32,810 bases of DNA from a virus, in IMG/VR virus record IMGVR_UViG_3300044825_000699, positions 1 to 32,810 of that record; one strand, written 5' to 3'. Under the pieces are notes generated by a model that saw only the letters and a program-made list of their open reading frames with translations, had not been told where the DNA came from and did not search any database. This document shows, one piece after another, positions 2,581-5,380 of this stretch (the first letter of the stretch is position 1; the number at the start of each line of letters is the position of its first letter). Made by a program: the position numbers and the translations under genes.

Positions 2581-2880
2581 ATGAGCAAAGCACAGTTCGA
2601 CAAAGTGATCTTGTCCCTCGGTGGGAATGAGTTCATCGTCCCGAAGAACGCCGCGATGGCGGTGTTTGATCTCTTCGCAGGCCACGACGTGTACAAAGTT
2701 CAGACGTGGTACCAAAACAACTGGCAGAACCATCGACCGATGGCGATAAAGCTGGAGTCTGAGTACATGCCCACCATCCGCACCCTGGGCCCGGTGCAGT
2801 TCGCAACGATGCGTGCCAACGCCGATGCCAAGGAGGAGCACGACCGGGCGGAAGCCGCAAAGAAGGCGTCCAATGCTTGA
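2581..2880 (+). CDS. Hypothetical protein (99 aa)
   Basis: The ATG at 2581 follows CACAGGAGTTATC, a clear ribosome binding site. The protein starts MSKAQFDKVILSLGGNEF and has a compact alpha/beta-like N-terminal half (FIVPKNAAMAVFDLFAGHDVYKVQTWYQNN) and a charged helical tail (NADAKEEHDRAEAAKKAS). The opening layout (short peptide, -VILSLGGNEFIVP, helix) resembles small phage proteins seen in early regions, but I cannot assign a family. The stop overlaps the next start (ATGCTTGA), so the two genes are translationally coupled. Confidence 0.8.
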   Translation: MSKAQFDKVILSLGGNEFIVPKNAAMAVFDLFAGHDVYKVQTWYQNNWQNHRPMAIKLESEYMPTIRTLGPVQFATMRANADAKEEHDRAEAAKKASNA

Positions 2881-3160
2881 CCCCGAGCGCAACCTTAAAG
2901 CGTCCTACCACATCAACACCACTCCGCTTGACAACCCCGGGCTCATCCTTGTCACGACCTACCCTAAGTCACCCGACAAACTTCAGATGGGCTACTATCG
3001 CCGTGGGGCGCTACCCCGATGGATGATCGAGGCGATGGCTCTGCTGGACGCTGGGCACCCTGAACAGGTGTACAACATCGGCGTGCGAGTAGGGGAAAAC
3101 TCGTACTGGATCGAGCCAATAAACACCGATGGCGTTGTTGACACCGACGAGTCGGGCTGA
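2873..3160 (+). CDS. Hypothetical protein (95 aa)
   Basis: The ATG at 2873 lies 8 bases before the end of the preceding gene; the frame ends with TGA at 3158-3160. The protein contains QMGYYRRGALPRWMIEAMALLD, an amphipathic helix after a Tyr-rich strand, and ends with an acidic tail (DGVVDTDESG). No known domain. The -35 box of the promoter at 3138-3166 lies inside its last codons and the -10 box starts on the base after the stop. A longer frame reaching back to 2813 is rejected because it would run within the preceding gene. Confidence 0.75.
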   Translation: MLDPERNLKASYHINTTPLDNPGLILVTTYPKSPDKLQMGYYRRGALPRWMIEAMALLDAGHPEQVYNIGVRVGENSYWIEPINTDGVVDTDESG

Positions 3161-3166
3161 TAAAGT
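3138..3166 (+). promoter_or_regulatory. Sigma70-type promoter
   Basis: A consensus -35 box TTGACA (3138-3143) is followed after exactly 17 bases by TAAAGT (3161-3166), matching 4 of 6 positions of TATAAT. It points toward the 83-aa gene at 3264 and would start transcription near 3173, giving a leader of about 90 bases. That leader contains a perfect 6-bp hairpin (GCACCG / CGGTGC, 3201-3216). This is the best promoter match I found in the window. Confidence 0.65.
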
Positions 3167-3263
3167 CTGACCACCAATCAACGGAGTAGCCGTCAACCAA
3201 GCACCGACCCCGGTGCGCTAACCCTTCGCCCGCTGCTACTCAGTGGGTGCATCAGAGGACAAC

Positions 3264-3515
3264 ATGTTCCAAATCGAAGCTGGAGTTTCCATCCCCAAGG
3301 GTACCCGTCCGGGTCGCCGTGGGACCTCGTTCCCGTTCGCTGACATGGAAGTCGGCGACTCGTTCCTGATCCCCTTCGACCCGTCGGGTGATGAGGGCAA
3401 GAAGGTGGTGGACTCGTGGCGGCGCAAGGTGCTGAACGCACGCAAGAAGTTCGTCGGCCTGGAGACCCGCACCGCCGTCATGTCCGATGGCCTGCGCGTG
3501 TGGCGCACCGCCTGA
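3264..3515 (+). CDS. Small basic phage protein of the MEVGDSF type (83 aa)
   Basis: The ATG at 3264 follows CAGAGGACAAC; an upstream in-frame GTG at 3243 lacks this signal and is less likely. The protein reads GTSFPFADMEVGDSFLIPFD, then a basic helix (WRRKVLNARKKF) and ends in GLRVWRTA. This layout (FPF-x2-MEVGDSF, a helix, then TRT-x-DGLRVWR) is one I recall from small conserved phage and plasmid proteins of unknown function, some grouped as a DUF. The basic helix suggests nucleic-acid binding, but that is inference. It is the only gene in the early region bracketed by its own promoter (3138-3166) and tandem terminators (3538-3605), so it is probably highly or independently expressed. Confidence 0.85.
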   Translation: MFQIEAGVSIPKGTRPGRRGTSFPFADMEVGDSFLIPFDPSGDEGKKVVDSWRRKVLNARKKFVGLETRTAVMSDGLRVWRTA

Positions 3516-3537
3516 CAGACCCCTGACCTCATCACTC

Positions 3538-3564
3538 AACGCTCTGCAAACGCAGGGCGTTTTT
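3538..3564 (+). terminator. Rho-independent terminator 1 of a tandem pair
   Basis: A GC-rich stem (CGCTCTGC / GCAGGGCG with one G-U pair, loop AAAC), extendable by two A-T pairs, is followed by a run of five T (3560-3564). It lies 23 bases after the stop of the 83-aa gene. Confidence 0.8.
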
Positions 3565-3572
3565 CATGGCCG

Positions 3573-3605
3573 AACGCTCAACACCCGCCAGGGCAGGGCG
3601 TTTTT
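3573..3605 (+). terminator. Rho-independent terminator 2 of a tandem pair
   Basis: AACGCTC pairs with GGGCGTT (one G-U pair), with a short inner CCC/GGG stem, and ends in five T (3601-3605). It repeats the AACGCTC...AGGGCGTTTTT pattern of terminator 1, suggesting a local duplication. Together the two should isolate the promoter-driven 83-aa gene from the small-gene train that starts at 3634. Confidence 0.65.
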
Positions 3606-3983: not shown

Positions 3984-4222
3984 AGTACGAAGGCACGATA
4001 TTCGACGGCACCGAGCCCACTGTGTGGGCACGGTCCGGTTACCGTGCGCTGGGCACGGACCAACAGGGGCGCTATCCCGAGGCGGCGGAAGCTGCCACCG
4101 ACATCGGCCAGGACGACGACGACCTGAATGCGTTCGACTGGGTTGCACTCTTGATGCTCGCCGTTGCGGTCGCTGTCACGGTGGCCGTCGGCGCTTTGAC
4201 GCTGTTGGGAGGTGGGGTATGA
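3980..4222 (+). CDS. Small C-terminal-anchored membrane protein (80 aa)
   Basis: The ATG at 3980 follows GGAAAGCGCC and overlaps the preceding stop. The first 50 residues are soluble and acidic toward the end (GQDDDDLNAFDW). Residues about 53-78 (WVALLMLAVAVAVTVAVGAL and on) form one hydrophobic segment. The layout predicts a protein anchored in the inner membrane by its tail, with the acidic part probably in the cytoplasm. No family is recognised. It is one of several single-pass micro- or small membrane proteins in this region. The stop overlaps the next ATG at 4219. Confidence 0.75.
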   Translation: MKYEGTIFDGTEPTVWARSGYRALGTDQQGRYPEAAEAATDIGQDDDDLNAFDWVALLMLAVAVAVTVAVGALTLLGGGV

Positions 4223-4761
4223 CCACGCTACGCGAAGCCGCCCAGCAGGCGCTGGAGGCGTTGGAATATCTGAACGTGACTGCGGAACATCGGGTTGACG
4301 ACCGCATACCGGACGCCGCCATCGCCGCCCTCCGCGCCGCGCTGGCGCAGCAGGAGCCAACAGTGCGTTTCAAATGTACTGTGGTTGATGACCGGCACCC
4401 AAATGGCGTGCCTTTTGAGCAGTGGGTAAACGCACCCCGCAGGCCGACGCTGCGGGAGATGGCGGAGGATGAGCCGGGGTGGCGGCTTTCATGTGGCTGT
4501 TCATCACAACACGGTGGCATACCCGCAGAGTGGGCCTCCACTACCCGTGAAGGTGATCCCGCAACTGCCTACGGAGTCATTTGTGAAAGGCACTGGCACG
4601 AGTACGAGGCGCAACATCCCCGCCGCGAGTGGCGGGGGCTGAGTGCGGAAGAATTCTGGTCGCTGCCCGAAGCTCGCGGATGGTTTCCGGGAGACCATTA
4701 CAGACTGACCAAACTGACCCGCGCCGTCGAGTCCAAGCTAAAGGAGAAGAACCATGAGTGA
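4219..4761 (+). CDS. Modular phage early protein, shuffled paralog 1 (180 aa)
   Basis: The ATG at 4219 overlaps the preceding TGA (ATGA). The protein begins with a helical module (LREAAQQALEALE, then IAALRAALAQQEP), continues with TVRFKCTVVDDRHPNGVPFE and a QWVNAPRR segment, then a Cys/His-containing stretch (CGCSSQHGG, CERHWHEYE) and ends with EWRGLSAEEFWSLP and LKEKNHE. The LREAAQQALEALE / ALRAALAQQEP module is one I recall from many betaproteobacterial phage proteins of unknown function. Three DNA blocks of this gene recur almost unchanged in the next gene (see the repeat entries). The N-terminal helices suggest oligomerisation. No enzymatic motif is visible. Confidence 0.8.
   Translation: MTTLREAAQQALEALEYLNVTAEHRVDDRIPDAAIAALRAALAQQEPTVRFKCTVVDDRHPNGVPFEQWVNAPRRPTLREMAEDEPGWRLSCGCSSQHGGIPAEWASTTREGDPATAYGVICERHWHEYEAQHPRREWRGLSAEEFWSLPEARGWFPGDHYRLTKLTRAVESKLKEKNHE
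4240..4265 (+). repeat. Direct repeat block A, copy 1
   Basis: A 26-base block encoding AQQALEALE is identical at 4240-4265 and 4775-4800. It lies at the N-terminal ends of two adjacent paralogous genes. Confidence 0.9.
4326..4440 (+). repeat. Direct repeat blocks B and C, copy 1 (contiguous)
   Basis: Block B (4326-4359, encoding ALRAALAQQEP) is identical over 34 bases to 4837-4870. Block C (4350-4440, encoding QEPTVRFKC through NAPR) matches 5152-5241 with about ten substitutions. Here B and C run together, sharing the codons for QEP; in the second gene they are separated by about 280 bases. Confidence 0.85.
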
Positions 4762-5380
4762 CCTGAGAACCGCAGCCCAGCAGGCGCTGGAGGCGTTGGA
4801 GCAAGACAATCCGGCGGGACGCAGCGCCACGATCACCGCCCTCCGCGCCGCGCTGGCGCAGCAGGAGCCAGTGGCGAAAATGCACGTTGTTTTTGAGGAC
4901 AACAACGGCGCGCTGCGCCGCACTCCGGCAGACTGCCAAGCCTTTGGTGCCAACGGGCAACCTGCTGCTGTTTACGTCGGTCGGCAACGGTATGTGCCAG
5001 AGCAGGAGCAAGAGCCGGTGGCGTGGCGCTATAAGCCAATGATCGGCTCGCCGTGGTCGTTGTCAGACGATGGGTACTACGTTTCGTGCAAACGAGACAA
5101 CGGCTACATCGTCGAGCCCCTCTACGCCCACCCACCCCGCCGCGAGACGGAGCAGGAGCCAACAGTGCGTATCAAATGCACTGTGGTTGATAACCAGCAT
5201 CCAAGCGGCGTACCTTTCGAGCAGTGGGTAAATGCACCCCGCCGCGAGTGGCAGGGGCTGAGTGATGAGGAGATCAATGACGGCCGAGATCAACTGCCTA
5301 CAGAAGACCTGTGCAACTGGTCATTCAGGCAAGGTGTCTACTTTGCCGAGGACAAACTGAAGGAGAAGAACAATGGCTGA
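4754..5380 (+). CDS. Modular phage early protein, shuffled paralog 2 (208 aa)
   Basis: The ATG at 4754 follows AAGGAGAAGAACC and overlaps the preceding gene by 8 bases. The protein shares the N-terminal helical module (LRTAAQQALEALE, ALRAALAQQEP) and the TVRIKCTVVDNQHPSGVPFE, QWVNAPRREWQGLS and LKEKNNG segments with paralog 1. Between them it carries an extra segment with QEQEPVAWRYKPMIG and YIVEPLYAHPPRRE. The units are joined at QEP each time, as if exchanged by recombination at the repeated CAGGAGCC sequence. Family function is unknown. The stop overlaps the next start by 8 bases (ATGGCTGA). Confidence 0.8.
   Translation: MSDLRTAAQQALEALEQDNPAGRSATITALRAALAQQEPVAKMHVVFEDNNGALRRTPADCQAFGANGQPAAVYVGRQRYVPEQEQEPVAWRYKPMIGSPWSLSDDGYYVSCKRDNGYIVEPLYAHPPRRETEQEPTVRIKCTVVDNQHPSGVPFEQWVNAPRREWQGLSDEEINDGRDQLPTEDLCNWSFRQGVYFAEDKLKEKNNG
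4775..4800 (+). repeat. Direct repeat block A, copy 2
   Basis: Identical to 4240-4265 over 26 bases. Confidence 0.9.
4837..4870 (+). repeat. Direct repeat block B, copy 2
   Basis: Identical to 4326-4359 over 34 bases; ends in the GCAGGAGCCA junction sequence that also begins block C. Confidence 0.9.
5152..5241 (+). repeat. Direct repeat block C, copy 2
   Basis: About 89% identical to 4350-4440 by eye; most differences look synonymous or conservative, implying that both copies are still under protein-level selection. Confidence 0.85.

Follow-up and report, generated by a model that had tools for sequence, protein, structure and literature searches.

The window analysed here is the whole of a 32.8-kb virus record whose plus strand carries replication genes encoding a family A DNA polymerase, a PD-(D/E)XK nuclease, an Rv2179c-like exonuclease, a SNF2-type helicase, and a DUF927 protein. 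About 15 kb of replication genes lie downstream of what appears to be an expression cassette dedicated to a single small basic protein of the WRRK subfamily of DUF7303. The cassette comprises the following elements.

3138 to 3166, plus strand: sigma70-type promoter, TTGACA-N17-TAAAGT, with TG before the -10 box
3173 to 3263, plus strand: structured leader RNA (5' UTR), 91 nt
3181 to 3193, plus strand: predicted hairpin 1, ACGG-AGUAG-CCGU
3185 to 3189, plus strand: loop 1, AGUAG, complementary to loop 3 (predicted kissing contact)
3201 to 3216, plus strand: predicted hairpin 2, GCACCG-ACCC-CGGUGC
3228 to 3248, plus strand: predicted hairpin 3, GCCCGCUG-CUACU-CAGUGGGU
3236 to 3240, plus strand: loop 3, CUACU
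3253 to 3258, plus strand: ribosome-binding sequence, AGAGGA
3264 to 3515, plus strand: gene for the basic DUF7303 protein, WRRK subfamily, 83 aa
3538 to 3564, plus strand: intrinsic terminator 1, AACGCTCTGCAAACGCAGGGCGTTTTT
3573 to 3605, plus strand: intrinsic terminator 2, AACGCTCAACACCCGCCAGGGCAGGGCGTTTTT, a partial repeat of terminator 1

The initial annotation had described a consensus promoter, a hairpin-containing leader, a single gene for a small basic protein, and two terminators as a self-contained unit isolated from both neighbours. These elements lie where it placed them, and the unit is conserved throughout the subfamily. Isolation holds on the 3' side, where the terminators stand. 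On the 5' side, the -10 box directly adjoins the stop codon of the upstream gene (2876 to 3160) and no terminator was found between that gene and the cassette, so upstream transcription can enter and the unit is insulated at its 3' end only. The following gene begins 28 nt past terminator 2, leaving no space for a promoter. Further upstream, positions 779 to 1990 encode a DUF2201 metallopeptidase/VWA-like protein (PF13203 and PF09967) whose position ahead of the cassette is conserved in several relatives; the PHROG label of its family is HNH endonuclease. Downstream, a block of short genes with shared repeated pieces such as ALRAALAQQEP (4219 to 5300) is very mosaic among relatives. The related locus L003 is about 97% identical to the window up to 4359 and continues beyond as scrambled matching pieces.

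The open reading frame runs from the ATG at 3264 to a TGA ending at 3515, and its product has a pI of 10.3 and a net charge of +4.5. The Pfam match to DUF7303 (PF23978; PHROG 7597) scores 40.6 bits (E = 2.4e-10), above the curated family threshold of 27, and covers profile positions 87 to 123 only, or 37 of 195, short of a whole-profile match. Short DUF7303 homologues are common, and AlphaFold models match them. AlphaFold2 predicts a beta-alpha-beta-beta arrangement for the protein (pLDDT 82), with low confidence in the stretch 13 to 19. The motifs PFADMEVGDSF and RVWR are common to this protein and many small phage proteins. IMG/VR was scanned with the protein and its alignments to define the subfamily, whose hallmark is WRRK...RVWRTA. 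Sequence searches of Pfam, PHROGs, NCBIfam, PADLOC, and the PDB returned no characterised homologue, and the roles proposed in the initial annotation, host takeover or nucleic-acid binding, are possibilities only. A fold search matched uncharacterised phage proteins, with no significant PDB match and no recognised RNA-binding fold, and a literature search found no paper naming DUF7303. Among isolated phages, neither the leader nor the protein has a close relative; only DUF7303 homologues of about 33% identity occur, in Pseudomonas and other phages. In three contigs carrying phages without the RNA leader (loci L095, L096, and L163; G009, G010, and G011), a second, weaker DUF7303 match lies elsewhere in the same contig.

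Within the family, it is the WRRK subfamily that sits in its own promoter-terminator unit, unlike other DUF7303 genes. The promoter boxes (TTGACA at 3138 to 3143, TAAAGT at 3161 to 3166) match 10 of 12 consensus positions and place the predicted RNA start near 3173. A mechanical scan of the first 20 kb returned nine promoter-like sites against 5.6 expected from shuffled sequence, a count not in itself above chance, and the relatives were therefore used as the test. That comparison was decisive: TTGAC(A/G/C)-N16-18-(T/C/G)ANNNT occupies the equivalent site in 26 of 26 related phage loci, while the spacer sequence drifts. Under a stricter rule, a promoter-like site precedes 21 of 23 subfamily genes, 5 of 30 other DUF7303 genes, and 5 of 167 other open reading frames, and a terminator lies within 70 nt of the stop codon in 22 of 23, 0 of 30, and 10 of 167 cases (the last being control frames from the same loci); the rows behind these counts are related rather than independent, and the contrast is large.

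The ribosome-binding sequence lies 5 nt ahead of the ATG and is invariant among the nearest relatives. An in-frame GTG at 3243, which would give a 90-aa form, was rejected as the start; it is not conserved, reading GCG in L002, so ATG 3264 is taken as the start. A coding leader or upstream open reading frame was likewise rejected, as the leader holds no ATG and only this non-conserved GTG in frame. In relatives lacking the RNA leader, an inverted repeat often spans the -10 box, with a sequence that differs from phage to phage: GACGCGTAG-N7-CTACGCGTC in L165 (2920 to 3001) and GGGAGGCCC-N6-GGGCCTCCC in L004 (2920 to 2995), with a further example in L156 (140 to 193). The promoter spacer of L150 holds CGCTGC-ATG-GCAGCG. 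Repeats of this kind in the -10 and spacer regions are possible operators.

Both terminators escaped a generic scan, as the stem of each extends into the T tract; no other GCGTTTTT terminators occur in the window. Terminator 1 occupies the same site in relatives, where its stem covaries (CTGC..GCAG, CTAC..GTAG, CCGC..GCGG, and CTGT..ACAG), and terminator 2 is present in some relatives and absent from others. The two partly repeat each other over 27 nt at 85% identity (GCAGGGCGTTTTT..GGC..AACGCT). Relatives carry either one terminator of this type (L002, L081) or two (L004 to L007, L083, L087), which supports the duplication hinted at earlier.

The leader hairpin noted in the initial annotation forms part of a conserved RNA with predicted loop-loop pairing that had gone unmentioned there. 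The leader folds better than shuffled sequences (MFE -31.5 kcal/mol, z = -2.7), and the fold extends from about 8 nt after the predicted RNA 5' end to some 15 nt short of the start codon. It would consist of two short hairpins (1 and 3) joined through mutual pairing of their 5-nt loops, and a third hairpin usually lies in between. This intervening hairpin 2 belongs to the MFE fold, has similar counterparts in L097, L150, and L167, and is absent from L176. A nested alternative, the 7-bp long-range helix GAGUAGC/GCUACUC, was rejected: hairpins 1 and 3 are more stable in nine of nine leaders tested (-31.5 against -25.4 kcal/mol in the window), and the helix leaves the covariation of the stems unexplained. 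Rfam 15 covariance models gave no hit to the leader or the terminators, either at the gathering threshold or at E <= 10.

Covariation was assessed in 11 distinct leaders that had been located by way of the protein or a single small segment of the leader, with pairs counted on hairpin-anchored segments because a whole-leader MAFFT alignment misplaced hairpin 3 in L167 and L176. Distant relatives have diverged in leader sequence and keep the same plan: a 4-bp stem carries the loop AG(U/C)(A/G)G in hairpin 1, and a longer stem carries the loop C(U/C)(A/G)CU in hairpin 3. The stem of hairpin 1 appears as ACGG/CCGU, UCGG/CCGA, GUGG/CCAC, and AUGG/CCGU, with two pairs showing double changes, and double changes affect six of the eight stem pairs of hairpin 3. 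The loops vary jointly, as AGUAG:CUACU, AGUGG:CCACU, and AGCAG:CUGCU, and are perfectly complementary in every case. All five loop-loop pairs are kept, so that 100% of cells in this helix are paired across the three loop types; two pairs show double changes, and covariation of the loop helix rests on these two varying pairs and few evolutionary events. Over the whole structure, the observed values exceed the shuffled ones for paired cells (95.2% against 82.0%), for pairs with double changes (10 of 17 against 4.8), and for the covariation score (0.434 against 0.174); none of 500 shuffles reached the observed value on any of these three measures. Sliding the structures by one to three columns reduces pairing to 31-51% of cells. 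Covariation in stems 1 and 3 is independent of that in the loops, and this supports each hairpin as well as the contact between their loops. Covarying stems and complementary, covarying loops thus support the prediction of an intramolecular kissing-loop RNA.

A passive role for such a fold is conceivable. The leader structure would shield the 5' end of the message from ribonucleases and the terminator hairpins the 3' end, yielding high expression with no regulator involved. The stability of the fold, the position of hairpin 1 some 8 nt from the predicted RNA start, and the combination of a strong promoter with strong terminators agree with this explanation. However, protection of a 5' end needs just a stem, not loops that covary across 51 nt. 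The nearest leaders, moreover, are near-invariant, with 87-88 of 92 positions identical to the window (four to five differences), single-stranded parts included, which suggests a specific partner. In the same relatives the coding sequence carries 21-35 substitutions plus indels, and the promoter spacer and the upstream gene also diverge more than the leader. Passive protection is accordingly regarded as unlikely.

Two more specific functions were also set aside. Sequestration of the ribosome-binding site as a conserved mechanism found no support, since predicted openness of the site does not differ between relatives with the motif (0.33-0.72) and without it (0.47-0.57). A CsrA-type ANGGA site in hairpin 1 was dropped on inspection by eye, as it is broken by UCGGA in L152 and GUGGA in L176.

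The distribution of the RNA ties it to a single gene. In pattern scans of 2.9 million viral contigs, every verified leader copy lies directly upstream of a DUF7303 gene of the WRRK subfamily. Two hairpins with complementary 5-nt loops, a combination that occurs by chance at about 0.065 per kb, are present in each of the subfamily's 12 distinct long leaders. Other pattern matches, those in bacterial genomes among them, either have no such hairpins or occur in unrelated settings; a search of bacterial genome contigs for hosts or prophages yielded neither a verified leader copy nor a subfamily relative. Comparison of the sequences establishes the promoter, the leader fold with its loop-loop covariation, the gene, and the terminators, together with the exclusive association of RNA and gene.

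Twelve of 24 distinct subfamily members lack the RNA, yet retain the gene, the promoter, and a terminator. The element is therefore not essential. The 5' UTR measures 67-124 nt where the motif is present and 24-39 nt where it is absent. On the protein tree the motif is clustered, requiring three changes against a shuffled mean of 9.5, with several deep forks open; this clustering is what inheritance of the element, with loss along certain lineages, would produce. The leaders of L153 and L155 keep only a hairpin-2-like AGCAC-UAC-GGUGC, hairpins 1 and 3 being gone, and such remnants suggest stepwise loss.

These data also bear on whether the leader acts in trans, as a small RNA freed from the message, or owes its conservation to recent cassette exchange. 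The region adjoining the cassette is indeed highly mosaic. However, no terminator separates leader and gene, the leader always lies directly upstream of the gene, and recent exchange leaves unexplained the compensatory changes across proteins about 45-65% identical. Both variants are very improbable.

The preferred interpretation is that the leader is a cis-acting RNA, which probably sets the translation and/or lifetime of its own message by binding a protein. We infer both its action on the message that carries it and the nature of what it binds. In this mechanism, the compact fold would adjust the fate of this one message, and the terminators would end that message just past the gene. The DUF7303 protein would be the simplest candidate partner, in an autogenous loop, because the RNA is found only ahead of its gene. 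The stronger proposal, in which the leader represents a new class of phage regulatory RNA and a specific binding site of the DUF7303 protein under autogenous control, is put forward tentatively as a possibility. As a candidate new RNA class in itself, with a structure supported by covariation and an inferred function, the leader is a good one; to our knowledge, only a small number of structured leaders have been described in tailed phages. If the autogenous proposal is true, a widespread phage family would gain a molecular function for the first time, that of RNA binding under autogenous control. The leader also offers a handle on DUF7303, which occurs in many phages, and its three natural loop pairs allow swaps in which a single exchange should be disruptive and a joint exchange restorative.

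The main active rival to cis-acting control of the message is antitermination of the HK022 put or nut type, in which RNA polymerase would read through both terminators into the approximately 15 kb of replication genes. In HK022, the putL RNA, about 70 nt long and folded into two stem-loops, lies shortly after PL and suppresses intrinsic terminators (PMC9378689). The leader resembles it as a short multi-hairpin RNA (here at 3181 to 3248) just after a phage promoter and before terminators. The overall layout matches that of lambda/HK022, where an early promoter is followed by an RNA element, the first small gene, and terminators, and the gene so close behind terminator 2, with no promoter space, would fit such read-through. 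On the other hand, put is described as a V shape with a triplex, kissing or pseudoknots being unmentioned (PMC9378689), in contrast to the kissing fold predicted here. The 12 of 24 distinct relatives without the RNA also keep their terminators with genes right behind them, which argues weakly against this explanation, and the window holds no boxA-like sequence (GCTCTTTA, GCTCTTAA, and CGCTCTTA are all absent from it). Antitermination is on balance rather improbable; suppression of terminators through the beta' zinc-binding domain of RNA polymerase, as exerted by put RNA, is for the leader a candidate activity only.

The lambda PL-nutL-N-tL1 region offers a similar comparison, with a promoter, a hairpin leader, a first small basic protein, and a terminator. 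It differs in its boxA and in its product, since lambda N is an unstructured arginine-rich peptide, whereas the DUF7303 protein is a predicted folded beta-alpha-beta-beta protein. Autogenously controlled leaders are known of the phage T4 and ribosomal-protein type. Although no Rfam family of this kind matches the leader, it resembles them as a structured 5' UTR exclusive to one gene for a small basic protein, with binding of its own product putative here.
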